64,000 bases of DNA from Zoroaster sp. YZ-2022 (taxonomy: Eukaryota; Echinodermata; Asteroidea; Forcipulatida; Zoroasteridae), in NCBI GenBank assembly GCA_029582265.1, contig CM055816.1, positions 35,490,891 to 35,554,890 of the forward strand, written 5' to 3'. The position numbers were made by a program, and so were the translations under genes. A model generated the notes under the pieces. It saw only the letters and a list, made by a program, of their open reading frames with translations, did no database searches and was not told the origin of the DNA. Below, in pieces: positions 4,435 through 57,866 of this stretch (positions are counted from its first letter, which is position 1; each line of letters begins with the position of its first letter).

Positions 4435-4584
4435 CTACATGTAGTTTGAGGCAACACCTGGTTTCATGCGCATGAAATCCAGGGAAGCGTACTCGGTTGA
4501 TTCTTCAGTTTGGATTGGGGGCTTGTCTGGAGGGTGAGCCTTCAAATGGGATACTTTAGCATAAATCAGTCCTTCTTCATTGAC
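4435..4584 (-). CDS. Terminal exon, ending 1: ITIM plus ITSM-like, stop TAG
   Basis: Acceptor caccttttcag; phase-0 start, 50 codons including TAG at 4435-4437. It encodes VNEEGLIYAKVSHLKA, HPPDKPPIQTEES, TEYASLDFMRMKP and GVASNYM. It carries the same ITIM (LIYAKV) and ITSM-like TEYASL as ending 2, with Lys/Glu, Ala/Asp and C-terminal differences (NYM versus NF). To reach this ending the transcript must skip exons 12157-12212 and 8703-8849. The 3' UTR beyond 4435 cannot be delimited from sequence alone. Confidence 0.8.
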   Translation of the reverse strand, partial: VNEEGLIYAKVSHLKAHPPDKPPIQTEESTEYASLDFMRMKPGVASNYM

Positions 4585-5055
4585 CTGAAAAGGTGGATAA
4601 AAAAATTACGATAACAATTACACAATTAGTGAATTATAAAGTATTAAGTACTATAGGTGAAGTAGGTTACATGAAGTAGGTGATGGTACCAAACATCCCA
4701 AGAAATGATTCCTTCTGAAATGCTGACATTTTTTTGAAAACTTGAAATATACATTGTATTAATAATTTGATAAATTTTACCTTTTTAGAATGAATGCAAA
4801 CAAATTTGAATACATTTTCAATATTCTCTTGTTACCCATAATGAAAATTGTTACACTATCACAGATTGGTTCCTGCAGATATCTCTTGATTCTTATAAAG
4901 TATGAATGCATTAACGGACAATTTACCAATGGTGTACCATTCCTTTAAGGCCTGTTTACATAATTAAACATAATTTTACCAGCAAGAGTATATCAAAATG
5001 GGATTTTCTCAATGACTTCATGATTTTATCACATGCAGCAAAGGCTAATTATAAG

Positions 5056-5112
5056 TATGGTGGCCGAGTGGTCTAGTGCACTGAACTCAAGTTCTGGTGT
5101 TGTCAGAACTTG
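5056..5112 (+). repeat. tRNA-like A-box fragment (block A copy 1)
   Basis: ggtggccgagtggtctagtg resembles a tRNA-Leu/Ser D-arm with A box, followed by an anticodon-stem-like gaactcaagttc. No T-arm or acceptor closure follows. Duplicated at 9613-9669. A SINE head, not a functional tRNA. Confidence 0.45.
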
Positions 5113-6370
5113 TGTCCTTGACACTTAACCATATATGATTTGTCCTTCGGATGGGATGTTAACTGGAGGTTACTGTATACTATTAGTCCTCCTACAATCA
5201 GTGCAATTTTTGAAACAACCCATTCAGGCCACTCCAAGCCATTAGCTGTTGCCAGTGGCCTCCTATATATGGTTACCCTTCTGTGTACTGTCACACCACT
5301 GAGATTACAGGATAAAGTGGTCTCCCATGATACATTGGAGGCCATACTAATATGTTCAAACATTTACAGTGTCCTTGGGTGGCACATGGTTGATTACTTG
5401 GAAAGGACAGGACTGTACATGTATGTAGTGAAGGTTGCTGAAGAACAGAATTTAGTGGATCGGAGTGGCCTCCATGTGTAGAAGGGTTTAATCAAATAGA
5501 CCAAGGCTAGAGGCTATACCAGTGGCACTTTCAACCCATCTTTTGTAAACAAGTGAAGCCATGTGTAACATGGTCTGTGTATTTATGTAGGTTAATTTCT
5601 AATTCTACCTCCATGGGTTAATTCACTGTAATGTGTCCGAGGTACATGTAACATGCTTGAAAGTCAATCCTTTTTATAATAATTAGCATTCACTGTATCT
5701 TCGAGAATTTAAAATACATATATAAATAAATTTAAAAAATGGGAAAACAGCAGCTGTCCAGATGCTATCCCATAATAATTATTGTGGTACCAAATCTTCA
5801 AAATGTACCATGCATTTTTGTTGATCTTTCATATTCAGCACTTATGGCCTGTAAATCTTGATAGGTAGTAATTTTGTCCCATTTGAAGAGGTGAATGTAC
5901 CAGTTTTCCCCCCAAAAAGTGCCCCTTGGAGGATTTTGATGGATTTGGGGTGGTTAGGGTTACGATGGTAATTACCAATGTTGTACCTTCCCTTTAAAGT
6001 TAGTGTGTCAAGTCACAAAGAGAAATTCTTGCACAAGGTGTCAATAGTCAACAGTAATAATATCAAGTGTGTTTGCAGTATAATAACAAACAACCAGGAG
6101 ACGCGTGTGAAGATTGGTTATCTACAAACGGCTGTCCGTCTGACATAACCTTCTGTTGATTGTTAGATAAATTTGTTTCAAACCGAGGTCAAAAGCTTAA
6201 ATATCTTGGAAACAGTAGCCAATCAGCAATTTTAATTGTCATATTTGAATTCAGCACATCAAAATCCATAATAAATAGCACATTTTATCTCCGAAGCAGA
6301 CAACTTTAAAAAAATTGTTGACCAGTGTAATAAGCTGACACATTCACAAGTTTGTTTCATCTACATGTAT

Positions 6371-7015
6371 GTATATCTTGATTCAAAGAGGGTAAGCATT
6401 CTCCTACAGGCTATTTTGCCAACATTAACCAATGATGTACCTTCCCTTTAATGTATATCTTGATTCAAAGAGAGTAAGCATACTCATAGAAGCAGTTTTG
6501 CCAACATTACCAATGTTGTACCTTCCCTTCAATGTATCTTGATTCAAAGAGAGGAAGCATACTCATAGAAGCAGTTTTGCCAACATTACCAATGTTGTAC
6601 CTTCCCTTCAATGTATATCTTGATTCAAAGAGAGTAAGCATACTCATAGAAGCAGTTTTGCCAACATTACCAATGCTGTACCTTCCCTTCAATGTATATC
6701 TTGATTCAAAGAGGGTAAGCATTCTCCTACAGGCTATTTTGCCAACATTACCAATGCTGTACCTTCCCTTCAATGTATATCTTGATTCAAAGAGGGTAAG
6801 CATTCTCCTACAGGCTATTTTGCCAACATTAACCAATGATGTAACTTCCCTTCAATGTATATCTTGATTCAAAGAGGGTAAGCATTCTCCTACAGGCTAT
6901 TTTGCCAACATTAACCAATGCTGTACCTTCCCTTCAATGTATATCTTGATTCAAAGAGGGTAAGCATTCTCCTACAGGCTATTTTGCCAACATTAACCAA
7001 TGATGTAACTTCCCT
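6371..7015. repeat. Minisatellite, about 82-bp unit, 8 copies
   Basis: Units start at tgtatatcttgattcaaag and end at ccaatgttgtaccttccctt. Two sub-types (agagtaagcatactcatagaag and agggtaagcattctcctacagg) are interspersed. Open frames on both strands are by-products of the periodicity. Confidence 0.9.
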
Positions 7016-7612
7016 TTAAAGTTATGTGTCTGCACTGCCAGAATTGTGTTGACACAGCTATTGAGTCCAATACAAAAATGAGACAATTTTGTTCAAGTTT
7101 GTTTGCTTTTGTTTGTAATAGTGTTGTTTTGAATAGTTTTTTTTTTTATCAGGTGTATCAGGTTCAAAATTTAGTTTAAAATTGAGTTCATGGTTCATTT
7201 TGTAGATAGAGGCATTGTTTTGTAAGTGTTCTGGGTGGGGGGTAACAATAATACTTTGCCAGTTTATTGTAAAACTCTTTCTCCATGGTAAAATGCTGCT
7301 CTTTGTAGATAGAGGCATCATTTTGTTCATCCTACACTACAAAATGTCCACATAACATTTTAAGGCTACCATGTTGGTCTTTCATCATTGCTATTCTGGT
7401 GATGTTAAGAATTAAATTGAATTTGACTGTACATACATAGTGTATGGCTCAGTCTTGAGTCCAGACGTTTTGTGAATCTGCTCACAACGCGCTGTACCTG
7501 CACACAATGTGCACTGCAAATTTATTTCTGATAAAATAAAGCTTGGTGAAAGACTAGACGTGTCCGAGTTTCTCAGGTTGGCACGCACTACTGCAATATC
7601 TGAGTTACTTCG

Positions 7613-7890
7613 GTGTAAGGGCAAAATCAAATCAATTGTTTATCACCCAACCCAAGAATTTCATCAATCTATAGATAAAGCAGAACCCGTTGCTATAAGG
7701 AGTCAGCTGGCCAATCGCCATCGGGCAAGCTCGGTGGTCGAGAGGTTAAGACGGCTACACTAGTAAGCAAGAGGTGGTTTCGAATCCTGCCTGAGTTACC
7801 TGTGGAGGTTGTCTCTGCAGACACTCAGAACGCACCGAATACACAGTGCTTCATACATTAGGTGGTGTAAGGGCAAAATCCAATCAATTA
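7613..7890 (+). repeat. tRNA-derived SINE monomer with direct-repeat borders
   Basis: A head ggtggtcgagaggttaagac (A box) and ggtttcgaatcctgc (B box) sits at 7729-7800. It is bordered by gtgtaagggcaaaatcaaatcaattg and gtgtaagggcaaaatccaatcaatta. The same family occurs at 11870-12150 and, inverted, at 62.55-63.0 kb. Confidence 0.65.
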
Positions 7891-7902
7891 TATTAGACTT
7901 AC

Positions 7903-7958
7903 CGTTCTCCCATCATCATCTTGTTTTTGCCCTAGATTTGCATAGGTATCCTCAGCAT
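7903..7958 (-). CDS. Penultimate exon, ending 1 (DAEDTYANL...)
   Basis: 56 nt, phase 1 to 0, between ccaaatcag and GAACG|gtaagt. It encodes DAEDTYANLGQKQDDDGRT, differing from the copy at 12157-12212 by Ala for Glu at the +1 residue of the Tyr motif. It lies next to a tRNA-derived SINE. Confidence 0.7.
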
Positions 7959-8702
7959 CTGATTTGGACAGGATAAAACAAGAAGTAAATACACTTTAAC
8001 ACTGATATCCAGCTTTTGGAGATGGGGTGGCAGTTCATCCATGGTTTGGATGGAGTTAGTGCAGCAAGTGTACAGTTAATTTTATAACCGAATAAGCAAA
8101 CACATGGTTAATTGGTTAACTGAACCAAATTTTTAAAACAAATACGAAGATGGCCAGCCATCGCTGGTATCCTCATTACATCCAAATCAATGCGTAAATA
8201 GTTTTTGTTTTACAAAATTAAGGTAGGAGGTGTAACCTGTATGTTATTAATAATGGCTGGTGTATTTTGTTGATTACATGTGTGTATAATGATATTGACA
8301 TATTTTGCAGGGGTATATCTTGTTCAAGATGATAGATGATGTTGTGTTTTGATATACGATCCATCGCCACAAGACGGCGATATACTATCTTTGCCCAAGA
8401 CGAACCGCTATCACACTCGAACCGCTATTGGTCAGAGTTTGATAAAATTACTATGGACCAATCACAGGCCAGCTTTCATTGGACACTTGGAAATCCAAGA
8501 TTGCAACCACAGATACTTTCATTTTATGATGGAAATTAATTTATGAAACCCAAACTATTATACCTAAATGTTAAGTTTTTTTTATGAAAATAAAGGTGGA
8601 AAAAAGAATTAGATTTTACTTTCACGTAAATTTTGCAGATTGATTGTATAGATGAGGGAATGTTTTCTGGGGTCAATGAACCAAAAAGGTTGGATGAACT
8701 TT

Positions 8703-8849
8703 TTAAAAGTTTGAAGCAACACCTGGTTTCATGCGCATGAAATCGAGGGAAGCATACTCGGTTGATTCTTCAGTTTGGATTGGGGGCTTGTCTGGAGGGT
8801 GATCCTTCAAATGGGAGACTTCAGCATAAATCAGTCCTTCTTCATTGAC
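8703..8849 (-). CDS. Terminal exon, ending 2: ITIM plus ITSM-like, stop TAA
   Basis: Acceptor caccttttcag; phase-0 start, 49 codons including TAA at 8703-8705. It encodes VNEEGLIYAEVSHLKD, HPPDKPPIQTEES, TEYASLDFMRMKP and GVASNF. LIYAEV is a strict ITIM and TEYASL an ITSM-like motif 20-odd residues later, with a proline segment between. This is the layout of the tails of CD33-type and SLAM-type receptors (known families; no homology claimed). Starting in phase 1 at the same acceptor would hit an immediate stop, which confirms phase 0. Confidence 0.8.
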   Translation of the reverse strand, partial: VNEEGLIYAEVSHLKDHPPDKPPIQTEESTEYASLDFMRMKPGVASNF

Positions 8850-9189
8850 CTGAAAAGGTGGATAAAAAAAATAACGATAATAAGTACTATAGGTGAAGTA
8901 GGTTAAATATATGAAGTAGGTGATGGTACCAAACATCCCAAGAAATGATTCCTTCTGAAATGCTGACATTTTTTTTGAAAACTTGAAATGTACATTGTAT
9001 TAATAATTTGATAAATTTTACCTTTTTAGAATGAATGCAAACAAATTTGAATACATTTTCAATATTCTCTTGTTACCCATAATGAAAATTGTTACACTAT
9101 CACAGATTGGTTCCTGCAGATATCTCTTGATTCTTATAAAGTATGAATGCATTAACGGACAATTTACCAATGGTGTACCATTCCTTTAA

Positions 9190-9501
9190 CCCTCCTATAT
9201 ACAGTGCAGTTGCCATAGAATTGTCAGACCTTTCAAAACCTTTCAAGTTTGCTGTACTGAAGGGTTTTGAAAGGTGAGAAAACTGTCTGACAAAAGGGAC
9301 CTATGAAAGGTTTCGAAAGGTGTAACATCTCTCTGAACAAACTGGTGTTGAAATGTTTCAATACCTTTCAAAGGGTATTGAAAGGTGTGGTTGTTCAGTA
9401 GCAACAAATTCTGGAGGATTTTAAAGGGTTCATAATAATTGATAGCCAATTTGGCCCGTAAGCAGATTTTGAAAGTTTTGAAAGGTCAAACCATAGGAGG
9501 G
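9190..9501. mobile_element. piggyBac-like MITE, TTAA target
   Basis: CCCTCCTATA ... TATAGGAGGG-type ends, flanked by TTAA at 9186-9189 and 9502-9505. The paralogous site in block A copy 1 (about 4945) reads ccattcctttaaggcctg without the element, an exact empty site. Confidence 0.85.
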
Positions 9502-10868
9502 TTAAGGCCTGTTTACATAATTAAACATAACTTTACCAGCAAGAGTATATCAAAATGGGATTTTCTCAATGACTTCATGATTTTATCACATGCAGCAAAG
9601 GCTAATTATAAGTATGGTGGCCGAGTGGTCTAGTGCACTGAACTCAAGTTCTGGTGTTGTCAGAACTTGTGTCCTTGACACTTAACCATATATGATTTGT
9701 CCTTCGGATGGGATGTTAACTGGAGGTTACTGTATACTATTAGTCCTCCTACAATCAGTGCAATTTTTGAAACAACCCATTCAGGCCACTCCAAGCCATT
9801 AGCTGTTGCCAGTGGCCTCCTATATATGGTTACCCTTCTGTGTACTGTCACACCACTGAGATTACAGGCTAAAGTGGTCTCCCATGATACATTGTAGGCC
9901 ATACTAATATGTTCAAACATTTACAGTGTCCTTGGGTGGCACATGGTTGGTTACTTGGAAAGGACAGGACTGTACATGTATGTAGTGAAGGTTGCTGAAG
10001 AACAGAATTTAGTGGATCGGAGTGGCCTCCATGTGTAGAAGGGTTTTAATCAAATAGACCAAGGCTAGAGGCTATACCAGTGGCACTTTCAACCCATCTT
10101 TTGTAAACAAGTGAAGCCATGTGTAACATGGTCTGTGTATTTATGTAGGTTAATTTCTAATTCTACCTCCATGGGTTAATTCACTGTAATGTGTCCGAGG
10201 TACATGTAACATGCTTGAAAGTCAATCCTTTTTATAATTAGCATTCACTGTATCTTCGAGAATTTAAAATACATATATAAATAAATTTAAAAAATGGGAA
10301 AACAGCAGCTGTCCAGATGCTATCCCATAATAATTATTGTGGTACCAAATCTTCAAAATGTACCATGCATTTTTGTTGATCTTTCATATTCAGCACTTAT
10401 GGCCTGTAAATCTTGATAGGTGCCCCTTGGAGGATTTTGATGGATTTGGGGTGGTTAGGGTTACGATGGTAATTACCAATGTTGTACCTTCCCTTTAAAG
10501 TCAGTGTGTCAAGTCACAAAGAGAAATTCTTGCACAAGGTGTCAATAGTCAACAGTAATAATATCAAGTGTGTTTGCAGTATAATAACAAACAACCAGGA
10601 GACGCGTGTGAAGATTGGTTATCTACAAACGGCTGTCCGTCTGACATAACCTTCTGTTGATTGTTGGATAAATTTGTTTCAAACCGAGGTCAAAAGCTTA
10701 AATATCTTGGAAACAGTAGCCAATCAGCAATTTTAATTGTCATATTTGAATTCAGCACATCAAAATCCATAATAAATAGCACATTTTATCTCCGAAGCAG
10801 ACAACTTTAAAAAAATTGTTGACCAGTGTAATAAGCTGACACATTCACAAGTTTGTTTCATCTACATG

Positions 10869-11275
10869 TATGTATATCTTGATTCAAAGAGGGTAAGCAT
10901 TCTCCTACAGGCTATTTTGCCAACATTAACCAATGATGTACCTTCCCTTTAATGTATATCTTGATTCAAAGAGAGTAAGCATACTCATAGAAGCAGTTTT
11001 GCCAACATTACCAATGTTGTACCTTCCCTTCAATGTATATCTTGATTCAAAGAGAGTAAGCATACTCATAGAAGCAGTTTTGCCAACATTACCAATGTTG
11101 TACCTTCCCTTCAATGTATATCTTGATTCAAAGAGGGTAAGCATTCTCCTACAGGCTATTTTGCCAACATTAACCAATGCTGTACCTTCCCTTCAATGTA
11201 TATCTTGATTCAAAGAGGGTAAGCATTCTCCTACAGGCTATTTTGCCAACATTAACCAATGTTGTAACTTCCCTT
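10869..11275. repeat. Minisatellite, about 82-bp unit, 5 copies (block A copy 2)
   Basis: Same unit and flanks as 6371-7015, with three fewer copies, so unit number changed after the block A duplication. Confidence 0.9.
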
Positions 11276-11869
11276 TAAAGTTATGTGTCTGCACTGCCAG
11301 AATTGTGTTGACACAGCTATCGAGTCCAATACAAAAATGAGACAATTTTGTTCAAGTTTGTTTGCTTTTGTTTGTAATAGTGTTGTTTTGAATAGTTTTT
11401 TAAATTTTTATCAGGTGTATCAGGTTCAAAATTTAGTTTAAAATTGAGTTCATGGTTCATTTTGTAGATAGAGGCATTGTTTTGTAAGTGTTCTGGGGGG
11501 TTTGGTTAACAATAATTTGCCAGTTTATTGTAAAACTCTTTCTCCATGGTAAAATGCTGCTCTTTGTAGATAGAGGCATTGTTTTGTTCATCCTACACTA
11601 CAAAATGTCCACATAACATTTTAAGGCTACCATGTTGGTCTTTCATCATTGCTATTCTGGTGATGTTCAGAATTAAATTGAATTTGACTGTACATACATA
11701 GTGTATGGCTCAGTCCAGACGTTTTGTGAATCTGCTCACAACGCGCTGTACCTGCACACAATGTGCACTGCAAATTTTTTTCTGATAAAATAAAGCTTGG
11801 TGAAAGATTAGACGTGTCCGAGTTTCTCAGGTTGGCACGCACTATTGCAAGATCTGATTTACTTCGGTG

Positions 11870-12150
11870 TAAGGGCAAAATCAAATCAATTGTTTATCAC
11901 CCAACCCAAGAATTCCATCAATCTATAGATAAAGCAGAACCTGTTGCTATAAATAGTCAGCTGGCCAATCGCCATCGGGTAAGCTCGGTGGTCGAGAGGT
12001 TAAGACGGCTACACTAGTAAGCAAGAGGTGGTTTCGAATCCTGCCCGAGTTACCTGTGGAGGTTGTCTCTGCAGACACTCAGAACGCACCGAGTACACAG
12101 TGCTTCATACATTAGGCGGTGTAAGGGCAAAATCCAATCAATTATATTAG
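11870..12150 (+). repeat. tRNA-derived SINE monomer (block A copy 2)
   Basis: Copy of 7613-7890 with tRNA-like A and B boxes at about 11985-12057. It ends a few bases from the penultimate exon 12157-12212. Confidence 0.65.
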
Positions 12151-12156
12151 ACTTAC

Positions 12157-12212
12157 CGTTCTCCCATCATCATCTTGTTTTTGCCCTAAATTTTCATAGG
12201 TATCCTCGGCAT
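12157..12212 (-). CDS. Penultimate exon, ending 2 (DAEDTYENL...)
   Basis: 56 nt, phase 1 to 0, between aacatttag and GAACG|gtaagt. It encodes DAEDTYENLGQKQDDDGRT. TYENL is a YxNL motif, which also fits the YxN preference of Grb2-type SH2 domains. Its phase-0 end joins only the terminal exons. Its upstream intron differs from the copy at 7903-7958 because about 0.6 kb is missing here. Confidence 0.7.
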
Positions 12213-12909
12213 CTAAATGTTAATGTTTTTTTAATGAAAATAAAGATGGAAAAAAGAATTAGATTTTACTTTCACGTAAATTTTGCAGATTGATTGTATA
12301 GATGAGGGAATGTTTTCTGGGGTCAATGAACAAAAAAGGTTGCATGAACTTTTTAAAAGTAGTTTTCGGATGAACAAACCGTAATCATATATACAATTGG
12401 TTAACTGAGTAACCAAGTAATTGGTGCAGCACTAGATGGAATATTACACTTTATAAAAGGAATAACAAAATCTCATGTATTGTCCATGTTTGTTGCCATC
12501 TTATCAGTAATTTCAATTTCTTTTTCATTGGAACAATGCTGTTTTACTTGGGGAATGGATAGCAAATAATTTGTCAGAGGCATGGTTTTATAGTATATGC
12601 ATTTCTCAAATTAAATTGATGGTAAGTCTCATCATGAATTCACTTGGGCACATAATAACGGTTAAATCAAGTTTCTGAAAATAAAGTACTCAATTTATTT
12701 TATGACGAGACCCACCATAAATTAATTTACTATAAATCCTCCCTCTGAAAATTATTTGTTTTTGTTTCATCAACAGATAATAATGAAGATTCCCAGAAAA
12801 ACTGCCGGTAAAATAGTGAGAAAATAGGGAGGGCCGATACATCTTTGACATAAAGGAAATAAGAGTTCACTTAACATTGCAATAAATGTGAATGAAATTG
12901 AAAACTCAC

Positions 12910-12969
12910 TGCTTTCAGCTGGTTTCTTGAAAGCTCTGATGTTGACTTCTTCATAAACCAATGATGCAC
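12910..12969 (-). CDS. Tail exon with ITIM LVYEEV
   Basis: 60 nt, class 1-1, between catgtcag and AAAGCA|gtgagt. It encodes GASLVYEEVNIRAFKKPAES. LVYEEV matches the ITIM consensus. It is the last exon shared by both possible 3' endings: its phase-1 end joins either 12157-12212 or 7903-7958. Confidence 0.7.
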
Positions 12970-13025: not shown

Positions 13026-13190
13026 ATTTAGAAACATATATTTAGAAACATATATTTAGAAACATATTTAGAAACATATATTTAGAAACATATATTTAGA
13101 AACATATATTTAGAAATATATGTTTAGAAACATATATTTAGGAACATATATTTAGAAACATATATTTAGAAACATATTTAAAAACATTTA
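13026..13190. repeat. 12-bp satellite ATATTTAGAAAC
   Basis: About a dozen tandem units with single-base variants. A second array lies at 15886-16010 at the start of block B copy 2. Confidence 0.85.
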
Positions 13191-13321
13191 TTTCATGCCA
13201 ACATAAAGAAATCAATTTACATCATTTATTCCAATACATATAATAATATACATGTACATGTAGATGCAACAAAACTATAAGCTATAAATTATACCAAATA
13301 AGGAAATGAAATTAATCTTAA

Positions 13322-13533
13322 CCCTAACCCCCTAGCTATTCTGGCTAAGAGCCTTCCTGAATCTGCCAAAATCCAACACTTTGTACAAACACTACCACCC
13401 AACTGTTGCACTCAGCTGGAATTAGGACACCCGGCCCCATGCAAAGTATCCCTGTCTGGGCTATACAGTACCGAGTCCATCAAAATCAAACAAACCCTGC
13501 TGTTGGAGTTTGAATGGTTTGGGGTGGTTAGGG
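13322..13533. mobile_element. piggyBac-like MITE (CCCTAACCCC ends), block B copy 1
   Basis: TTAA at 13318-13321 and 13534-13537; ends CCCTAACCCCC and GGTGGTTAGGG. Copied in block B copy 2 at about 16143-16354. Confidence 0.75.
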
Positions 13534-14201
13534 TTAAATGCTAACATGTATGGAAAATGGGGAAGCAGAGCTTTTGTAAGCCTTCCATACGGAGAGACAG
13601 AACACAATCAATATGACAGAATACGACGGGACAACCAAAAACATGAGTAATACTCGCTGTAGCTTCATTTGAGAGACTATGAAAAAAAAGTATATATAAT
13701 AAACAGAGAAACAAATTAAAATGAAGATTTTTACAAATATGATTAAAAAAATGCAACTTGTAACTTTTTGGACAAAAGGCGTCAGTAACAGTTTGTCTTG
13801 TGTCAGCAAAACAAAACACCTCTCTGTAAGAGTGTATTTTTGGAGTGCACTGTCCTCCTAAAATTTACATAAATATTACCCTTTGATGAACTACAAGCCT
13901 CAGAGGAGGAAACAGAAGCAATTAATGTAAACCACGCTTAAAAACCAGGAGACAGCAAGTTGTGAGTATATTTAAAATTAAATTTCCCCAAATTAAGATG
14001 TCTCCCAGTTTTAAAAGTTTGAGATTTTCAAATAAAGGAGAACCCAACATTGTTTACAATGCGAAGAAGAAAAGAATTATACTGTTAGAAGAACCCTTTT
14101 TGGTAAAAAAACGTTTCAATTGGCTCCTTGTACCAACATTTTTAGAAATCTTACTTGACAAGATATTAACATGCAATAGTAATGCAATAGATTAATATTA
14201 A

Positions 14202-14756
14202 CCCTAACCATGCTAAATGCAACAGGATGCAACAGTTGTAAAATTCTAATGGACGTTGCTGCATTCAGCAGCCAGTACTGATGACTCAAATCTGTTGTAT
14301 CTTGTTGCATTCAGCGTTGTTTAACATGTAAATAAAGAAGGAAATAAAGAAAGTTTCTTTTGATGTAAACAGTGGAAAACAAAAATAAGCAGAAAAGATA
14401 AAACATGTAAATAAAGAAGGAAAGAAAGTTACTTTTATGTAAATATAAAGAAAACAGAAAGAAGCAAAGAAAACATAAAAGTAACAAGCATGTAAACAAA
14501 GGGAAAGGACAATGATGATTACCATAGCAGAGAAGCACAAAGCTTGTGCAGCTAAATAATCCCCTCGTTGTATGTTGTTGCAGAGAGCACTGTGAATGAA
14601 AAACCAGTCCAATTTACTGAACCCTTCACTGCTAAGTGCAACAAGATCCATATAATTATGGATCTTGTTGCACCTAGCAGGCCTCGATCATTGACCACTG
14701 TTGCATGTTGTTGCATTTAGCAGGGTGATAAGAAAGTTACCCTAGCATGGTTAGGG
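14202..14756. mobile_element. piggyBac-like MITE, long inverted ends (CCCTAACCATGC)
   Basis: TTAA at 14198-14201 and 14757-14760; inverted ends CCCTAACCATGCTAAATGC and GCATGGTTAGGG. Inner half rich in ttgttgcat/atgcaaca words and GTAAATAAAGAAGGAAA repeats, which produce a spurious hydrophobic frame on the minus strand. Copied at about 17022-17579. Confidence 0.75.
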
Positions 14757-14835
14757 TTAACGCTGCCACTACACCTGTCCCCGTCTTCACCCTTCTTAAT
14801 TACCTACATGTACAGGTACAATTATTTTAACTTAC

Positions 14836-14901
14836 CCCCAGACTTGGACTTCTTCATCGAATCAGGGACTTTTAAATCCTCATATGCATCCTCATCAGCA
14901 A
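14836..14901 (-). CDS. Tail exon with AYEDL motif (block B copy 1)
   Basis: 66 nt, class 1-1, aattttag to TGGGG|gtaagt. It encodes VADEDAYEDLKVPDSM then KKSKSG. YEDL is a half-ITAM-type YxxL. One Leu/Val difference from its partner falls in the +3 position of the motif, where both residues are functional in SH2 ligands. Confidence 0.7.
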
Positions 14902-15071
14902 CTAAAATTACAAAATTAGTAAAAAAATTTTTTTTACATACTGATTTTGATTCTCTCCATAAAACACCTCCTCCCCCAAAACACCCCCCATCAAACCAGC
15001 CTAGTACCACTTTGAAGTATCTAGTGCCTGTTGTTTTCCCCTATATTCAAGTGAAGATTATATTTGTATAC

Positions 15072-15119
15072 CTGCTGACGGTGGTTTGTACTTCTTTGGT
15101 TTCCTGGAAGGAGCGCTCA
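15072..15119 (-). CDS. Tail exon VSAPSRKPKKYKPPSA (block B copy 1)
   Basis: 48 nt, class 1-1, cctttag to CAGCAG|gtatac. It encodes the same 16 residues as 17914-17961. Unchanged coding after duplication suggests recent duplication or constraint. Confidence 0.65.
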
Positions 15120-15299
15120 CTAAAGGAAAAGAAGAGAGAAAAAAGACAACAAAATATAGATTCCTTTGGTACCAAAACTTTCCCTTTAACTTCGTCAGTG
15201 GAGATTCCGCACTTTTAGAACTTGCATCACTTTTAGAAATTGCATGTAAATGGATTTACCCCTCTGAGGCCCTCTCTTTGCAAAGGAGCATATTTCTTA

Positions 15300-15720: not shown

Positions 15721-15885
15721 GGAAAACTACCAAAATGAGTGCAGACTTCGTGTATACATATACATGTAAAAATAACTGCAGTATACCCTTACAGAAATAT
15801 CATGGAGCTTGATGGCTTCCAAAAATGCAAATTAGTTCAAGCTCAAGCTTGCAGACAAGTGTTCCCTAAATTGTTTTGAGTAGTA

Positions 15886-16010
15886 TATTTAGAAACATAC
15901 ATTTAGAAACATACATTTAGAAACATACGTTTAGAAACATATATTTAGAAACATATATTTAGAAACATATATTTAGAAACATATATTTAGAAACATATTT
16001 AAAAACATTT
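15886..16010. repeat. 12-bp satellite ATATTTAGAAAC, second array
   Basis: Same unit as 13026-13190; it marks the left edge of block B copy 2. A partial Tc1-type MITE end (gtgttccctaaattgttttg) abuts it at 15860-15886. Confidence 0.8.
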
Positions 16011-17657: not shown

Positions 17658-17723
17658 CCCCAGATTTAGACTTCTTCATCGAATCAGGGACTTTTACATC
17701 CTCATATGCGTCCTCATCAGCAA
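17658..17723 (-). CDS. Tail exon with AYEDV motif (block B copy 2)
   Basis: 66 nt, class 1-1, between aattttag and TGGGG|gtaagt. It encodes VADEDAYEDVKVPDSM then KKSKSG. YEDV with acidic residues upstream is a good Src-family substrate context. The block B partner at 14836-14901 has YEDL instead. Confidence 0.7.
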
Positions 17724-17913: not shown

Positions 17914-17961
17914 CTGCTGACGGTGGTTTGTACTTCTTTGGTTTCCTGGAAGGAGCGCTCA
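17914..17961 (-). CDS. Tail exon VSAPSRKPKKYKPPSA (block B copy 2)
   Basis: 48 nt, class 1-1, between cctttag and CAGCAG|gtatac. It encodes VSAPSRKPKKYKPPSA, a basic/proline segment (RKPKKYKPP) typical of SH3 or lipid contact regions (inference). Sequence identical in coding to its copy at 15072-15119. Confidence 0.65.
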
Positions 17962-19597: not shown

Positions 19598-19642
19598 CTT
19601 CCTTTTTCTTGTTGACCACGGCGTAGGTAACATCAGGAAGAT
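19598..19642 (-). CDS. Tail exon with canonical ITIM VTYAVV
   Basis: 45 nt, class 1-1, between cttttcag and GGAAG|gtcagt. It encodes DLPDVTYAVVNKKKE. VTYAVV fits the ITIM consensus (S/I/V/L-x-Y-x-x-I/V/L) exactly. Single copy. In vertebrate receptors such motifs bind SHP-1/SHP-2 SH2 domains after phosphorylation (known for the motif, inferred here). Confidence 0.75.
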
Positions 19643-20060: not shown

Positions 20061-20213
20061 AAACACAAAATCCGAACCCCAAACAAACAAAAACAAAACA
20101 ACAATAATTGAACAAAGGAAGACGGAACAGGAACACAATAATATACGAATTAAAGAACCAACAAGCAAACAATACATGTAACAAATATTTAAATCCAAAA
20201 CCTCATATCTTAC

Positions 20214-20267
20214 TTGGAGGCAAAGGCTTTGGCGATTTCTTGTCTTTCTGCACCAAGGCATAGGTGT
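20214..20267 (-). CDS. Tail exon with DTYALV and Pro-rich end (block C copy 1)
   Basis: 54 nt, class 1-1, attgatag to CCTCCAA|gtaaga. It encodes DTYALVQKDKKSPKPLPP, with a YxxV motif followed by the PxxP-type run SPKPLPP. The intron upstream of it, within block C copy 1, carries the Penelope-like insertion at 21.05-22.50 kb. Confidence 0.7.
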
Positions 20268-23152: not shown

Positions 23153-23218
23153 CTCCATTGTCAGTCATCATTCTTTCAATAAAGGGCGCTTTTGGATGAG
23201 TATCCACTGTCACCCCTC
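23153..23218 (-). CDS. Tail exon GGVTVDTHPKAPF... (block C copy 1)
   Basis: 66 nt, class 1-1, ccctcag to GGAG|gtatag. It encodes GGVTVDTHPKAPFIERMM then TDNG. No Tyr. Conserved with its block C partner at 25569-25634. Confidence 0.65.
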
Positions 23219-23270: not shown

Positions 23271-23327
23271 CTTTTTCAGTCGTTGAAGTGGGTCTTTGGG
23301 TCGACTTCCTTTTGCGAGTTTCTTCAT
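23271..23327 (-). CDS. Tail exon, basic Ser/Thr-rich (block C copy 1)
   Basis: 57 nt, class 1-1, ctgccttag to GAAAAAG|gtgtgc. It encodes DEETRKRKSTQRPTSTTEK. A 52-nt intron separates it from the next exon at 23153-23218, unusually short for this locus. Confidence 0.65.
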
Positions 23328-23866: not shown

Positions 23867-23920
23867 TTGGAGGCAAAGACTTTGGCGGTTTCTTGTCTTT
23901 CTGCACCAAGGCATAGGTGT
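23867..23920 (-). CDS. Tail exon with DTYALV and Pro-rich end (block C copy 2)
   Basis: 54 nt, class 1-1, between attgatag and CCTCCAA|gtaaga. It encodes DTYALVQKDKKPPKSLPP. TYALV is a YxxV phosphotyrosine-type motif (Asp at -2, so not a strict ITIM). The PPKSLPP end is a possible SH3 ligand. Duplicate of 20214-20267 with Ser/Pro swaps. Confidence 0.7.
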
Positions 23921-25568: not shown

Positions 25569-25634
25569 CTCCATTGTCAGTCATCATTCTTTCAATAGAG
25601 GGCACTTTTGGATGAGTCTCCACTGTCACCCCTC
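25569..25634 (-). CDS. Tail exon GGVTVETHPKVPS... (block C copy 2)
   Basis: 66 nt, class 1-1, between ccctcag and GGAG|gtatag. It encodes GGVTVETHPKVPSIERMM then TDNG. It differs from its copy at 23153-23218 at several codons (Asp/Glu, Ala/Val, Phe/Ser) without any frame change, which is evidence that both are or were coding. Confidence 0.65.
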
Positions 25635-25686: not shown

Positions 25687-25743
25687 CTTTTTCAGTCGTT
25701 GAAGTGGATCTTTGGGTCGACTTCCTTTTGCGAGTTTCTTCAT
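25687..25743 (-). CDS. Tail exon, basic Ser/Thr-rich (block C copy 2)
   Basis: 57 nt, class 1-1, between ctgccttag and GAAAAAG|gtgtgc. It encodes DEETRKRKSTQRSTSTTEK, a basic Ser/Thr-rich segment and possible phosphorylation site. It is followed after a very short intron (52 nt) by 25569-25634. Duplicate of 23271-23327 with one visible Pro/Ser replacement, so the frame has been kept since duplication. Confidence 0.65.
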
Positions 25744-30231: not shown

Positions 30232-30288
30232 CTGCGTCAGCAGCTTCCTCTTGTTGATGGAAGGTTTCGGCCCTGTTATCTGTGGCTT
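30232..30288 (-). CDS. Candidate 57-nt cytoplasmic tail exon
   Basis: Ends at a good donor (GACGCAG|gtcaga). If the acceptor is the gggag just upstream, the exon is class 1-1 and reads EATDNRAETFHQQEEAADAG (acidic). If the stronger-looking ttactag is used instead, the exon becomes 62 nt in another frame (GEKPQITGPKPSINKRKL...) and ends in phase 0, which does not fit its neighbours. The frame is therefore uncertain. Confidence 0.3.
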
Positions 30289-30719
30289 CTCCCCTAGTAA
30301 AAACAAGTGTCCTCTAATTATTTCACAGAAAAATGTCTCCAAGGAGATTTTCAAGTTAGGTCTACAGATACTTGTTTCTTCTGTAGTTTTACTTTTTGTG
30401 ATTTTTGCTGGGCTTCAAGTGGTCTCTTGCAAAAAAATAGGGATAAATATAGGGCATTTTTTTCTAAAATATAGGGCCAATATAGGGCTTCACAAGAAAA
30501 TTATAGGAAAAATATCTAGGAATTTTACAAATACAACAGCTGCACAACAACAGTGCTCATTCGATTTTTAACACCATTTTCCGTATGGGAAAATCAAAAA
30601 AATATAGGAAATATAGGGACGCTTGAAGCCCTGTTTTTGTTTTTCTGATGGAGAAATACTTTACCTACTAATTTGTACATGTATATTTAATTAAGGCCAT
30701 TGTGCACCTACATGTACAA

Positions 30720-32133: not shown

Positions 32134-32193
32134 CTTGGTTAGTAGCCACAAGTGCAGATTTTCTGATAGAAGAGTTCACACGTTTCTCATCAA
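32134..32193 (-). CDS. 60-nt cytoplasmic tail exon (VDEKRVNSSI...)
   Basis: Class 1-1, between tgttacag and ACCAAG|gtctgc. It encodes VDEKRVNSSIRKSALVATNQG. It is a paralogue of 33425-33484, with the same length, phase and upstream intron words. It contains a basic-Ser stretch (SSIRKS) that could be a kinase site (inference only). Confidence 0.6.
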
Positions 32194-39798: not shown

Positions 39799-39882
39799 CT
39801 TTGGGGCCAGCCTTGGCAAGGGGTTTCATGATCAGAGGTGTCGTCTGATTAGTTTGCCCTTTGTCGACCCGAGTGTAGATTG
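39799..39882 (-). CDS. Cytoplasmic exon with AIYTRV tyrosine motif
   Basis: 84 nt, class 1-1, between gtttcacag and CCAAAG|gtgtgg. It encodes AIYTRVDKGQTNQ, then TTPLIMKPLAKAGPKG. IYTRV is a YxxV motif resembling an ITIM, although position -2 is Ala rather than Ser/Ile/Val/Leu. Membrane-proximal in the tail. Three 18-nt exon-like copies with similar donor flanks lie just downstream (39523-39728). Confidence 0.7.
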
Positions 39883-42388: not shown

Positions 42389-42432
42389 CGTTGCTTTGTA
42401 GTCCTTCGCTAACACGACCATTTTGCTCAGAA
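42389..42432 (-). CDS. 44-nt cytoplasmic exon (phase 2 to 1)
   Basis: Bounded by aattttag and AACG|gtaagt (strong donor). In phase 2 it reads GSEQNGRVSEGLQSN and ends in phase 1, restoring the phase used by all later tail exons. In the other two frames it is either stopped or incompatible with the neighbours. Membrane-proximal part of the cytoplasmic tail; no motif recognised. Confidence 0.55.
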
Positions 42433-48138: not shown

Positions 48139-48314
48139 GTGCCACGGCCGAGTGGTCTCGCGCATCAGATTTGTGTTCTGATGTCTGAGTGCCACGGCCG
48201 AGTGGTCTAGCGCATCACACTTGTGTTCTGATGTCCGAGTGCCACGGCCGAGTGGTCTATAGCGCATCAGACTTGTGTTCTGATGTCTGAGTGCCACGGC
48301 CGAGTGGTCTAGTG
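48139..48314 (+). repeat. Tandem tRNA-like heads, units 1-4 (left of hAT insertion)
   Basis: 50-52-bp units, each gtgccacggccgagtggtct ... cagacttgtgttctgatgtctga: a tRNA D-arm/A-box plus anticodon arm without T-arm. Unit 4 is interrupted at 48314. Confidence 0.8.
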
Positions 48315-48706
48315 CAGCGTTCCGCAACCTTTTTGGCCCACGACCCAATCAAAATTCCAGGCATTCAGCTGCGACCCATCACCCCCATGGCAAAACTTTA
48401 TCACTACAAATGCCATGGAAATGTAATTGCTATATGACGTTAATTTTAGTACACCGTCTTTGTACATAGTAATTTGAGACTTAAATAATTCAAGATATTA
48501 ACGTGAATAAAGCAAATCAACGACAATCATATCGATAACTGTTCTTATTGCTGTTTGCGCCATCGCTCGATACTTTGCATCATCATGACCACGTGAATGA
48601 GTTTCGTTCTCGGTGGCGTATTAACGAAAGATCCAGCCCACTTGTTATAATTATCAGCCAAGCTTAGTGATCGAAGGGAGAGGATGACTCCACCTACTTA
48701 TTACTA

Positions 48707-48842
48707 GGTAAAACTTGTAGCTTTGCATGGTGAGGAAGACTAATTGCGGTGACACCATGTGGAATCTCAACTGAGTAGTAATTAGTTCAGAACTAATTAC
48801 TACTCAATTGAGATTCCACATGGTGTCACCGCAATTAGTCTT
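48707..48842. mobile_element. 136-bp palindromic Penelope-derived insertion
   Basis: Flanked by a perfect 15-bp direct repeat acctacttattacta (48692-48706 and 48843-48857). Most of it is a palindrome with 52-bp arms (agactaattgcggtgacacc ... ggtgtcaccgcaattagtct) with almost no spacer; left tip cttgtagctttgcatggtga. Confidence 0.85.
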
Positions 48843-49593: not shown

Positions 49594-49861
49594 GCTTTAC
49601 ACCTGGCTGACTGGTCATAATAATGACTTCAAAAGATCCACCGCGCATGTTTTGCGCTGTGGATCTTCTGATGTCTTTTTTATTTGATAACTTTGTGGAT
49701 GTGCGCTACCCGCTACTATACGACAATGCACTTTCTTTTTGCAAATATGCCGATCTAAAGAAGTTGATTTTTTTTTCGCGATTTCTGAAGTAATCCCGCG
49801 ACCCATCAAAAATCCTCCGCGACCCAATTTTGGGTCGCGACCCATAGGTTGCGGAACGGTG

Positions 49862-50300
49862 GTCTAGTGCATCAGACTTGTGTTCTGATGTCTGAGTGCC
49901 ACGGCCGAGTGGTCTAGCGCATCAGACTTGTGTTCTGATGTCTGAGTGCCACGGCCGAGTGGTCTAGCGCAACAGACTTGTGTTCTGATGTCTGAGTCGT
50001 CAGAATGTGGGTTCGAATCCTGGCCGTGACTGTGGTACTTGTTTTTTTGAGCAAGACACTTCACTGTACAGTGCTTCTCTTTACCCTGGCGTATAAATGT
50101 GTACCTGTGAGGGTACATAGAGGTTGATATTGTGGTTGAAAAAGCTATGCGCTATGGTAGCTCAGGGCTGTATACTCCCCAGGGAGCTGAGAAAGTTTAA
50201 GGATTAATATTGGCCCAATGAGCAGGGTAATAATGTAAAAGCGCCTTGTATCCTTTGGCGCTCTATAAATCCAGTTATTATTGTTATTATTACTATTATT
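49862..50300 (+). repeat. Tandem tRNA-like heads, units 4-6, and full SINE body
   Basis: After the hAT target duplication, the array continues (units at 49896 and 49946). Only the last unit has the B box and acceptor-side match (ggttcgaatcctggccgtgac, ending near 50031). A body follows, then the tail aaagcgccttgtatcc ... ctctataaatccagttatt with (ATT)n. Together it is a tRNA-derived SINE with an L2-like tail and a multiplied head. Confidence 0.75.
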
Positions 50301-52247: not shown

Positions 52248-52388
52248 CTTTTGTCTTTAGATGTTTTGGTGATGTCTTCCTCAGAATGAGGCCAATGATG
52301 ATAGCCAGAAGGAAGATGCTTCCTACTACACCTCCTGCGATGACAACAGCATTGTTATTGGGAGGGCTGACTGGACCTTTGTTTGTGA
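52248..52388 (-). CDS. Transmembrane exon of the receptor
   Basis: 141 nt, class 1-1, between tttgtag and AAAAG|gtaaat. It encodes VTNKGPVSPPNNN, then the hydrophobic helix AVVIAGGVVGSIFLLAIIIG and LIL, then the basic stop-transfer RKTSPKHLKTKG. This gives a type I single-pass orientation: the furin-site exon lies upstream outside the cell and the Tyr-motif exons follow inside. A GG/G-x-x-G pattern in the helix could support dimer packing (inference). The next exon downstream (46839-46863) starts in the matching phase. Confidence 0.85.
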
Positions 52389-53569: not shown

Positions 53570-53821
53570 TTAATTGAGTTTTAAATTTAAATTAGAACAA
53601 GGAAACATTTGATACATGTATACAGGTATTTCTAAGAGAGATATTCAAATAATTCCACAGCTTGGGGCGTTCATTTTTTACACCTTTTTGGGCTAGTGTG
53701 GTACGACCATACCTGCCAGTCTCCTTTATCATAAATATACACTTGTATATGAATGTTTTGCATTATTTCTTTCACACAAAAATCTTATAAGCTGAATACA
53801 CCAAAAACATCTCAAACTTAC

Positions 53822-54094
53822 TCTTTTCGGCAACTGATGGATCACTGCACAAGTCGCCATAACAAATCCTAGAGCGCACATCTTCTACATCCCTAGCTGC
53901 TCGTCTTTTCCGTGTCTGACTTGCTGGACACTGCACAGATAATGTCACTGTCGTATCAGATGTGATACATTCTCCACACTCCTGCCAATCATTGATGCCT
54001 TTATACTTGACCTCCAGCTGAATACAACCATTCTTGCCTGTCAATCCAGTCACAGTCACTGTGCCTTCATCTGTGTTATACTGTATGGTGAAAC
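53822..54094 (-). CDS. Ectodomain juxtamembrane exon with furin-type site
   Basis: 273 nt, class 1-1, bounded by tttgcag and AAAAGA|gtaagt. It encodes about 91 residues. The first half is beta-strand-like (GFTIQYNTDEGTVTVTGL ... CIQLEVKYKGINDWQECGEC ... TVTLSVQCPASQ). It is followed by the dibasic run TRKRRAARD, a good R-x-K/R-R proprotein-convertase site, and then a Cys-x4-Cys segment (ICYGDLC). Six cysteines are visible. It lies immediately upstream of the transmembrane exon, so the receptor may be cleaved close to the membrane and held together by a disulfide or shed. I do not recognise the fold; a zona-pellucida-like or FN3/Ig-like end is possible but unproven. Confidence 0.75.
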
Positions 54095-55124
54095 CTGCAA
54101 ATAGCGTAAAATAGAGATTAAAAAATATGTACAAGAAACAAACATTTTACCAGCGATAAAAATTACTTTCAAGACAAATAGTGAAGGGGGGAGGTTTAAT
54201 AAGTGATACCTGAACTCAAATTATTTTTCAAAAGTGGGAGGAAGGATGATTAGGACCTACATGTACATGTACATGTAGCAAAAAAAACAAACATTTGATT
54301 TGACCTCCAAATTAGGGTTCATTAACTTATGTGGTAGACTGCCAGAATAGAGTGGGTTAAAAGTTGACGTTTGTATCAGTAAAGAAGACGCAAATTTATA
54401 CAATTTGTTGCTTTATGGATTCTGGAAGAAATGGGCAATAAATGTTTTTGTTTCCTTGGTTGTCTTGGCAGCCTTTATTCCCGCTGGCCCCCCATCCTGC
54501 CCACCCCATCTGAGCACTTGTCTTTGCACCTTAAAAATCATATAAAAAGTGTCCTAATTCTTATTAAATGTTCAAGATCATACAAAATGGTAAATATTTT
54601 CAACCCTATTTTAAAAAGTAAGTAATTCTAAGTAGGAATCACCAAAAATAAGACTATTTTTCTTTAACCCTTCAAAAAACCTATGAAAATGTACTTCCCC
54701 ATCAGGGACACTTTCACTGAGCCTATTTTGATTACGTACATTTACGGGAGGGTGAACACTACAACTGTTTACTGTGGTACGTTTTGTACACAAAGCATAG
54801 TACATCGCGTACAGCTGTAAAAATAAGTTTACCAACTAAGACTTTCAAAAGTTAACCAGCCCCTATGTTGGTGGGCGGTCCACTTATGCCAATTATCTAT
54901 TGCTCTATGGGGCCAGGTCAGAGGCCAAACCATATCTGCCGAGTAGCCAGGGATCAAGCCCCGGTCAGATGCAAACAACCCTGGTAACGGTTGTACACAA
55001 AGTAAATTTATATGGAGAAACTGACCTGAAATATTATATACATGTAAACGGTTCGCGAGCAAAGAATATGCATGATGTACATGCTGATTTTAATTAATTA
55101 AACTTAAACATTAAGGTTAATTAC

Positions 55125-55763: not shown

Positions 55764-56377
55764 TTAATGTACACTATGTAGACGATGTGATGTTACAAAA
55801 TACATTAGTGGTGTGGTCACATTTTTTGCCCACGCTCATCTTGTTTTGGTTTAGACGTGACATCACAGATCGCATCGTCTCATTGAGAATGTTTGTTGGA
55901 ACATTTTGAAGTGACCTATATGAATTTCCAGGTTTGATGAGAGGGTAAAGTCATTCCACAATCAGGTGGGGGAGGGTGTGTGAGGGTAGGGATGATACTT
56001 GGATCCACCTGGACAATCAGGAGACGGGGTAGGTGCCTCCCCATCTACATTTAGATGAGTTATACATGTAAATGTTTAAAATGCAGAACATCTGCTTGTC
56101 TGAGTTGAGGCTGTTGAGAAGGTCCAGAAAGTGAAAATGAATGATTAACACCCCCTCCCCTCACCCAAAAAAGAACAAACAAACAACACCAAACACACTC
56201 ACACATATTTGTTTATGGTGTAAACTGAGGACCTCCTTATAGTCCCCTCTTTTGCTCCCTTTGTTTGACTTATGGTGTAAATTTTAGGCACCTCCCCTTT
56301 GTTTTCTACACGTTTAACAACCAAGAACATTTCTAAACAAGAACTGACAACTGAGGACCCAATGTTGCCATTGTTAA

Positions 56378-56635
56378 CCAGTTCGCGTCGGGAATAAAAA
56401 AGTTTTTCTGGGCCCCTGTGGCGGGTTTCTTTTTCCCACACACACGTTAATGGAAGCTTACACAGCGGGTGGCCGGCACTTCGAGCATGTCACCATACAC
56501 GCGTGGCTCATCAACCGAGCATGCATACAAATATTCCGGAGTTTCCTGTGGCGTGTTTAGATGCTCTCCGACCCGTGGTGCAAAACAAAATTGAGTGTAT
56601 ACATGTACATGTACACGGCCTCCGACGCGAACTGG
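56378..56635. mobile_element. TTAA-flanked MITE (CCAGTTCGCGTCG ends)
   Basis: TTAA at 56374-56377 and 56636-56639; perfect 13-bp ends CCAGTTCGCGTCG / CGACGCGAACTGG. Best copy of this family. Confidence 0.8.
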
Positions 56636-56701
56636 TTAAAAATAAGCTGTTTACACCATAAAATAACCCCCATACATTTGTACATGTAATGCTGTATGTC
56701 A

Positions 56702-57042
56702 CTATGAATAACTTTACCCTGAAAATGCCCTGAAAATCAGTTGTACCATGAAATAAATAGTTCATGGCAATTTCACGATGGCACAACACCATGAAATTGC
56801 CATGAAATACTCTTGGAATTCCTTCACCTTGAAAACGCTGTGAAAATGCCATGAACATCTCATGGCAGTTTTGGGGCGGCTTATTATTTCTCGAGAGCAC
56901 CATGAATTTGCTGTTAAATCACCGTGGACATTATTGCAAATATCCGAGAGGAAGAGATACTGTGAAATTGCAGTGAAATTATGGTGAACTGTTATTTCAA
57001 GTCGAAACAGATTTTCAAGGCATTTTCAAGGTGAAGTTGTGT
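56702..57042. mobile_element. MITE (CTTTACCCTGAAAATGCCC ends)
   Basis: Relative of 18994-19335. Both copies lie immediately after a CAGTTCGCG MITE, so the pair may have moved or been duplicated together. Confidence 0.65.
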
Positions 57043-57821
57043 AAAATAACCCACATACATGTAATACTGTATGTGTTCATACAGGAAGAGAACCCCACAT
57101 GTCAAATTCTAGTCAAACATCCCCACACCCAATCTACAAAAACATTCTACGTTTTTCTTCCTTCCTTCCTGTATTGTAAGTAAGCTAGGGTTTTCCTTGG
57201 GGCAAACAGTGAACTATACATGTACTATACAAACAGTGTACATGCACATAATTATTTCTCAGGTCTTAAGGGATGGTACACCATTGGGATCTGGGAATGA
57301 GCATTCATTCAAACCCTGTACACGTAGTTTAGGGGAACCGGATACCCGAAATTGGAAATCTTTGGATACCCAGGAACCATATAAACAATTTTGTAAAAAC
57401 ACATAAAATACTCCTGAATGTATAAAATAACCAATACGAACACAAATTTCAAACAAAGGCAGCAAATCTGTGAAAGGCTGTCGCCAAATGTTCATCCAAG
57501 TTTTGTTCATTTTGTTAGGAAATTTTTTTTTTCCATTTGTGTGGCTTAAAATGTTGAGTCAAAATTAGTTTCCGAGTGCACAGCCTTAATAGAGCTTTCA
57601 AGATATTTTCATGAAATTAATCTTTGAAAAGTTTTTCACAAAAACTACATGTACAGGTGATTGTATGTTTTTGAGAAAACAACAAAAAACTGAACTTTTT
57701 AATATTTTGTTTGTACAAAAAGTTTCCATCACAATTCCTTTGTTCTATAAGATAAAAATCACTCAGAATAATTAGACAGAATAATTTCTCAGGATGACTG
57801 ACCATATACAGTGTACCAAAC

Positions 57822-57866
57822 CTGTAAGACAAACTTGTTGATCTGGAGCCAATTGAGGCAATTTTG
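57822..57866 (-). CDS. Candidate 45-nt ectodomain exon (phase 1-1)
   Basis: Reading minus, a C/T-rich tract ending in cttcag precedes the exon, and CTTACAG|gtttgg follows it. With a phase-1 G from the previous exon it reads AKLPQLAPDQQVCLT, open throughout and a multiple of three. It lies upstream of the ectodomain and transmembrane exons of the receptor gene. A neighbouring tandem copy at 58058-58108 keeps the acceptor but has lost the donor, which fits exon duplication in this gene. No domain is recognised. The short length makes this provisional. Confidence 0.4.

Follow-up and report, generated by a model that had tools for sequence, protein, structure and literature searches.

The 64,000 bp stretch of the sea star Zoroaster sp. 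YZ-2022 analysed here (contig CM055816.1, positions 35,490,891 to 35,554,890; hereafter the window) raises the question whether the short, tyrosine-bearing exons on its minus strand belong to one membrane receptor gene and, if so, to what kind of receptor. By homology, this strand carries the 3' half of an immunoglobulin (Ig)/FN3-type receptor gene whose closest relatives are found in sea stars. An exon for a membrane-proximal domain (exon A) is followed by a transmembrane (TM) exon and by 20 candidate tail exons that reach down to position 4435. The tail consists of tiny exons, most of them with a docking site; blocks of these exons have been duplicated, and related gene models differ in the number of such sites. 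We read the gene as encoding a type I membrane receptor whose tail would act as a modular SH2 scaffold, phosphorylated by Src-family kinases (SFKs) and closed by an SHP-type inhibitory end, and give this reading a probability of about 0.68.

The assignment is carried by full-length predicted relatives, in which Ig and FN3 domains are followed by these modules, arranged as in the window. A search with the tail of a predicted Patiria miniata gene model (P0002) retrieved five proteins from 659 candidates: P0002 itself, a second predicted P. miniata gene model (P0004, LOC119735735 isoform X5, uncharacterized), P0005 on a 5,524-base record that is perhaps a transcript, the nephrin-like isoform X6 of Asterias amurensis (P0006) and the nephrin-like isoform X3 of the sea cucumber Apostichopus japonicus (P0007). 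P0004, P0006 and P0007 belong to sequence clusters of 13, 22 and 7 members, each cluster on one contig, which points to numerous predicted isoforms for each gene. With the last exon left off, the tails of P0002, P0005 and P0006 aligned by tblastn to the minus strand as colinear chains scoring 45.1, 62.7 and 59.6 (matches with stops excluded, only bits above 16 credited). The same tails scored 13.8, 13.3 and 16.2 on the plus strand and reversed tails 13.9, 11.4 and 14.9; maxima for shuffled tails were 18.5, 14.3 and 19.6 on the minus and 23.0, 14.8 and 20.0 on the plus strand, with 0 of 60 shuffles reaching the observed value in each case.

P0005 has the modules E3, E7, E8, E9, E10, E11, E12, E14 and E15 in window order, P0006 the same set together with E6 (10 of 14 residues identical to its EKPLITKPKPSMKK) and three E5-like units, and P0002 has E3, E9 to E12, E14 and E15. 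With duplicates counted, 18 of the 20 tail exons find a counterpart in at least one relative and keep the order, the exceptions being E4 and E13. The latter showed weak similarity to a Patiria module (16 of 1000 shuffles) and to E12 (20 of 1000 shuffles) and is possibly a diverged E12-type cassette. E15 is 81% identical to P0002, 64% to P0006 and 61% to P0007 by tblastn, and is the only window module clearly matched in the sea cucumber tail; by these values the window sequence would stand nearer to Patiria than to Asterias among sea stars. A preliminary description of the locus had proposed one gene and a membrane receptor with a phosphotyrosine tail; the relatives, with their shared module order behind Ig and FN3 domains, support both proposals. 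Ig domains were found in all six long relatives, several in each, together with one fn3 stretch by Pfam and a further domain whose fold is FN3-like. The window gene thus presumably has its Ig domains and one FN3 domain encoded upstream; no Ig exon was detected in the window and no upstream Ig or FN3 exon at 54-64 kb.

The furin-site exon, the TM exon and the 20 tail exons could all be assigned splice signals and phases on the minus strand. A motif-blind scan for class 1-1 exons (splice signals plus open frame, score >5.5) gave 13 minus-strand versus 11 plus-strand candidates, and a further splice scan 31 versus 19, with matrices set by hand and loosened after a stricter setting had yielded none. 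Splice signals by themselves do not separate the strands by number; homology decides. Among the minus-strand class 1-1 candidates listed, 11 of 12 overlap model exons, the remaining one lying at 31103-31246, and seven model exons (A, TM, E4, E10, E12a, E12b and E13) reach the scan score. All 20 tail exons are open in frame. Because codons split at the junctions give back residues conserved in the relatives (KGG at E7/E8, GDTYA at E8/E9 and NLPDVTY at E9/E10), exon A, the TM exon and the tail mini-exons very likely form one spliced gene. With E12 spliced straight onto E14, the arrangement of P0005, the junction reads GDAE; with E13 in between, the same codon gives N. The class 1-1 organization ascribed to the tail holds for most modules, whereas E3 is of class 2-1, E14 of class 1-0 and E6 apparently of class 1-0, and E15 runs from phase 0 to the stop.

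Exon A appears to encode an FN3 domain by fold, an assignment that rests on a VIA-align structural comparison of the modelled domain. The profile search suggested in the preliminary description gave no Pfam match reaching cut-off for this exon; nor did the PDB yield a convincing relative by sequence (best E 0.18 and 0.025), or prokaryote or viral contigs any relative of the reading frame. A search with the domain against 342 candidates (proteins of about 750-2400 residues) returned two matches, a DSCAM-like 1 homolog of P. miniata (59%) and a TYRO3-like protein of Acanthaster planci (57%). P0001, a 141-residue ENA protein, matches 91% of the exon A reading frame at 80% identity, with 73 of 90 residues identical within the exon. 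When 53700-54150 is compared with P0001 by eye, the translated intron flank looks more alike than the exon, where 17 of 90 residues differ; in so small a sample this is a hint that the ectodomain evolves fast between paralogues or alleles. The predicted furin-type site R-x-[KR]-R reads RKRR in the window and RRRR in P0001 to P0006, and is absent from P0007.

The tyrosine motifs listed for the tail are all present: LVYEEV, VTYAVV, LIYAEV/LIYAKV, TEYASL in two copies, AIYTRV, TYALV twice, AYEDV/L and TYENL/TYANL. The first three of these entries conform to the immunoreceptor tyrosine-based inhibitory motif (ITIM) [SIVL]xYxx[IVL] in exons past the TM exon, and such motifs occur in five of five ITIM-tailed relatives. 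These five, including the sea cucumber protein, and both window copies share a C-terminal LIYxE[VI]...T[ET]YAxx pair with tyrosines 24 residues apart, the second motif resembling an immunoreceptor tyrosine-based switch motif (ITSM); P0005 and P0006 carry TTYASI at this position. In such a receptor, ligand or adhesion would cause clustering, and SFKs would phosphorylate the tail tyrosines, as inferred from knowledge of ITIM receptors. The terminal ITIM and ITSM-like pair might then bind an SHP-type phosphatase with tandem SH2 domains, which would supply a constant inhibitory signal, while the upstream TYAxV, YExV/L and proline-rich modules could attract additional proteins with SH2 or SH3 domains. 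Being phase 1-1 cassettes, most modules could be duplicated or skipped with the frame kept, so that the number of docking sites would change, and the duplicated terminal pair would offer a choice between two candidate 3' ends. Of the possible partners, the parts covered of a study of Patiria eggs report 52 expressed SH2 open reading frames (ORFs) and name SFK1, SFK3, Syk, Csk, Grb2 and a category 'phosphatases' (PMC11593052).

Three exon blocks are tandemly duplicated: E7-E8-E9 (22501-23806 with 24941-26240, and 20149-21050 with 23804-24952), E11-E12 (13055-15293 with 15876-18121, 96.7% identical) and E14-E15 (pieces between 4443-7960 and 8708-12214). Unequal exchange plausibly caused them, since a 14-base minisatellite lies at the start of both E11-E12 copies (13026-13193 and 15884-16014) and an 81-base tandem repeat occurs in the introns of E14-E15. 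The motif tyrosines are intact in both copies of every pair. Over the seven duplicated exon pairs, 9 synonymous changes per 103.3 sites were counted versus 10 nonsynonymous changes per 364.7 sites (ratio 0.31, p = 0.013), with the terminal pair limited to its first 46 codons and the differing last residues omitted. The purifying signal comes from E12, E14 and E15 (9 synonymous, 4 nonsynonymous); E11 shows no changes. Duplication of E14-E15 leaves two candidate 3' ends, each reachable from phase 1 exons. In E15a (8849-8723) we also noted a possible alternative internal donor, CAG|GTGTTG, in phase 1, from which the exon could continue into E14b; the joined frame is open and would place two ITIM/ITSM pairs in series.

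The multiplied modules differ between genes. Where the window has two copies each of E7-E9, E11-E12 and E14-E15, P0006 has three of E5, and P0004 has three of E11 and 17 of E12. The E12-type units of P0004 are 24-residue modules AAEES[AG]YEE[VIM]...PPAA (residues 1009-1452), interspersed with the three E11-type units; the 17 copies were counted by motif pattern (8 by score threshold) in the predicted gene model of one assembly. The +3 residue is V or I in 6 copies and M in 11, a possible change of SH2 partner class. We tentatively propose, with more doubt than conviction, that echinoderms have a family of receptors whose phosphotyrosine array is evolvable. The inhibitory end of ITIM/ITSM type would have stayed fixed over deep time as phase 1-1 SH2-site cassettes were multiplied in lineage-specific blocks (up to 17 copies), with a drift from YEEV/I to YEEM that possibly turned SFK/SHP-type into PI3K-type sites. 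Receptors that combine related ectodomains with either an ITIM tail or an FGFR-like kinase would then form inhibitory and activating pairs.

The same gene might instead be a nephrin relative of the adhesion or slit-diaphragm type, with tyrosines that recruit SFKs, Grb2/Nck and actin regulators at junctions and without an inhibitory immune role. The database name 'nephrin-like' of relatives points this way, as do contactin-2, RPTP-delta and Robo2 among the best solved matches of P0006, although Fc receptor-like 5 is likewise among them (rank 4). Nephrin itself has eight Ig domains and one FN3 domain and carries YDxV Nck-binding motifs in its tail. None of the Yxx[VILM] motifs listed for the five ITIM-tailed relatives is a YDxV, nor was one seen in the window exons read, which cover the tail from E3 onwards, and the conserved end is an ITIM plus ITSM-like pair. 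A sea urchin 'nephrin-like' gene, LOC581043, is placed in axial organ and coelomocytes in the parts covered of one report (PMC12113024), but is linked to this family by name. We regard a purely adhesive receptor as unlikely, if far from negligible. A shorter real tail is improbable: at least one of the three block duplications would then be an assembly artefact in which allelic copies were set in tandem. The aligned copy pieces are about 90-99% identical, within the range of allelic divergence, and E14a, with its weak acceptor, sits at a duplication breakpoint. Against this, the three duplications are separate and local, comprise whole exon blocks and have differing offsets, a Patiria model also has E11-E12 in multiple copies, and the exon substitutions skew synonymous overall.

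We give little credence to the window holding two partial genes, with exon A and TM drawn from another cluster paralogue than the tail, for example a kinase-type gene. The 9.8-kb gap between TM and E3, in which no linking class 1-2 exon was found, would allow it, and an Acanthaster relative (P0003) couples the same type of exon A to a kinase. However, the window TM exon matches the ITIM-type P0006 (E 8e-7), with no minus-strand match of P0003 there among the matches listed, and the order from TM to E3 is identical in P0005 and P0006. No protein kinase was detected on the minus strand at 4-53 and 54-64 kb in three-frame Pfam scans, which very short kinase exons could escape. A decaying gene with free-floating duplicated exons is very improbable: E6 is out of phase with E7, the acceptor of E14a is weak and the E7-E9 pairs show nonsynonymous changes only, yet all the tail exons are open, every pair retains its motif tyrosines and the overall ratio is 0.31.

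Several observations weigh against an inhibitory receptor encoded by one intact gene. The gene model is a prediction from genomic DNA and sequence comparison, and SHP binding, phosphorylation, furin cleavage, ligand and immune role are predictions. With L at +3, the window TEYASL departs from the strict ITSM TxYxx[VI], and the words SHP and PTPN are missing from the main text of the Patiria SH2 study (PMC11593052). E3 enters in phase 2, and a class 1-2 exon to join it to TM was looked for in the intervening gap and not found. E6 appears to exit in phase 0 whereas E7 enters in phase 1; E4 and E13 are without counterparts in relatives, E4 being backed by splice signals only. The E7-E9 pairs, with 0 synonymous and 6 nonsynonymous changes, may be under relaxed constraint, and the closest AATAAA/ATTAAA signals lie 1177 and 1089 bases past the two stops.

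Table 1. Exons of the receptor gene model, in transcript order. The tblastn comparison with relatives leaves out P0003 rows, rows containing stops and plus-strand rows with E ≥5.
Exon	Position	Strand	Class	Sequence or motif	Relatives and remarks
A	53822..54094	-	1-1	RKRR furin-type site	Membrane-proximal FN3-like domain (by model)
TM	52248..52388	-	1-1	PPNNNAVVIAGGVVGSIFLLAIIIGLILRKTSPKH	42.4 bits, E 8e-7 to TM of P0006; splice sites read
E3	42389..42432	-	2-1	SEQNGRVSEGLQSN	P0002, P0005, P0006
E4	39799..39882	-	1-1	AIYTRV	Top class 1-1 splice score (9.5); no match in relatives
E5	32134..32193	-	1-1	DEKRVNSSIRKS	Three tandem counterparts, P0006 only; weak donor score
E6	30232..30293	-	Phase 1 in, apparent 0 out	EKPQITGPKPSINK	Coordinates by eye, 3' end approximate
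E7a	25687..25743	-	1-1	EETRKRKSTQRSTSTTEK	P0005, P0006
E8a	25569..25634	-	1-1	GVTVETHPKVPSIERMMTDNG	P0005, P0006
E9a	23867..23920	-	1-1	DTYALV...PPKSLPP	P0002, P0004, P0005, P0006
E7b	23271..23327	-			Copy of E7a (block 22501-23806 ~ 24941-26240)
E8b	23153..23218	-			Copy of E8a (same block)
E9b	20214..20267	-		DTYALV	Copy of E9a (20149-20565 ~ 23804-24198, 91.6%)
E10	19598..19642	-	1-1	NLPDVTYAVV, strict ITIM	P0002 has NLPDVTYAEV; N is the junction codon
E11a	17914..17961	-	1-1	SAPSRKPKKYKPPSA	P0002, P0004, P0005, P0006
E12a	17658..17723	-	1-1	ADEDAYEDVKVPD	One copy each in P0002, P0005, P0006; amplified in P0004
E11b	15072..15119	-			Copy of E11a (E11-E12 block; aligned piece 13064-15293 ~ 15885-18121, 96.9%)
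E12b	14836..14901	-		AYEDL	Copy of E12a (E11-E12 block)
E13	12910..12969	-	1-1	LVYEEV, strict ITIM	Splice score 7.3; no above-threshold match in relatives
E14a	12157..12212	-	1-0	DTYENL	Weak acceptor (-3.8); tails of P0002, P0004, P0005, P0006
E15a	8703..8849	-	Phase 0 to stop	LIYAEV ITIM, 24 residues to TEYASL (ITSM-like)	Terminal
E14b	7903..7958	-	1-0	DTYANL	
E15b	4435..4584	-		LIYAKV, TEYASL, stop	Duplicate terminal exon

Some other candidates in the window were rejected. The gene had been taken to extend to 57866; 57803-57866 scores as an exon but is a repeat copy (57785-57939 ~ 58024-58181) without a match in relatives, and the visible gene has its 5' limit at 54094. The candidate at 45417-45463 (LPTLPDSAEDFAY) lies within a near-perfect palindrome (45273-45466; 194 bases, 99% self-complementary), possibly a foldback element. 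Those at 31103-31246 and 48698-48799 are repeats common to both and to 35.3-35.6 kb; a further candidate at 35631-35744 has neither repeat nor relative. The plus strand carries a Tc1-type transposase ORF of 353 amino acids at 58660-59721 (HTH_Tnp_Tc3_2, DDE_3) and, at 60325-61986, a reverse transcriptase ORF (60325-61041, RVT_1), which we take to be of the non-long terminal repeat type, followed by an ORF without Pfam match. Minus-strand ORFs between E8b and E9b (21326-22331) gave no Pfam match above cut-off and presumably resemble the GIY-YIG end of a Penelope-like element. Tandem or dispersed repeats occur at 48139-48316, 49859-49997, 62589-63043 and 11982-12052, those at 62.6-62.9 kb and 11982-12052 scoring as tRNA-derived.

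Among known systems, the predicted echinoderm relatives (P0002, P0004, P0005, P0006 and P0007) are like the window gene in TM, tail module order and C-terminal pair, the Ig and FN3 ectodomain being theirs. The A. planci TYRO3-like isoform X2 (P0003) shares the RRRR site in the exon A domain, and its ectodomain is 53% identical to both Patiria ITIM-type receptors, which are themselves 41% and 48% identical to that of P0006. It differs in that its tail is a tyrosine kinase; among its best 60 of 112 solved kinases all are FGFR1-3 except the first, labelled EGFR. No cytoplasmic kinase domain was found in the minus-strand scans of the window. DSCAM has ten Ig and six FN3 domains, whereas each of the six relatives has one fn3 stretch, over which P0003 matches the DSCAM C-terminal FN3 family with a score below cut-off. 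Receptors of the PD-1/Siglec type, in which an ITIM is followed roughly 25 residues downstream by a TEYxxx motif, resemble the window tail in motif arrangement, with other ectodomains and short tails. To our knowledge, PECAM-1 has no FN3 domain, no furin-type site and no block-amplified tail exons. Its likeness is that of an Ig receptor with dual ITIMs and a multi-exon cytoplasmic domain; according to the parts of the source covered, its eight cytoplasmic exons are alternatively spliced, and variants without exon 14 cannot bind SHP-2 (PMC5664058). Botryllus FcoR and Hydractinia Alr are invertebrate Ig receptors with ITIMs, and FcoR splicing can swap an ITIM and a hemITAM (hemi-immunoreceptor tyrosine-based activation motif). 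FcoR differ by their V-Ig, sushi and two C2-Ig domains and their allorecognition locus, with no FN3 domain or repeated modules reported in the parts covered (PMC12065747).

The receptor had been called undescribed. Among the titles and abstract openings in the literature listings covered, none describes this echinoderm tail, but gene models already exist under generic names (DSCAM-like, nephrin-like, uncharacterized); going by those listings, both the echinoderm family and the amplification of its docking exons in blocks appear to be new. ITIM signalling has been studied best in vertebrate immunity, and a few cases from invertebrates belong to allorecognition loci. A C-terminal ITIM/ITSM-like pair common to sea star and sea cucumber would put a tandem-SH2 inhibitory receptor in their common ancestor. 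That an ITIM tail and a kinase occur with related ectodomains makes inhibitory/activating pairing testable. Finally, the block-duplicated tail is a natural experiment in the tuning of a receptor by the number and type of its SH2 docking sites, and this variation can be read straight from genomes and long-read cDNA.

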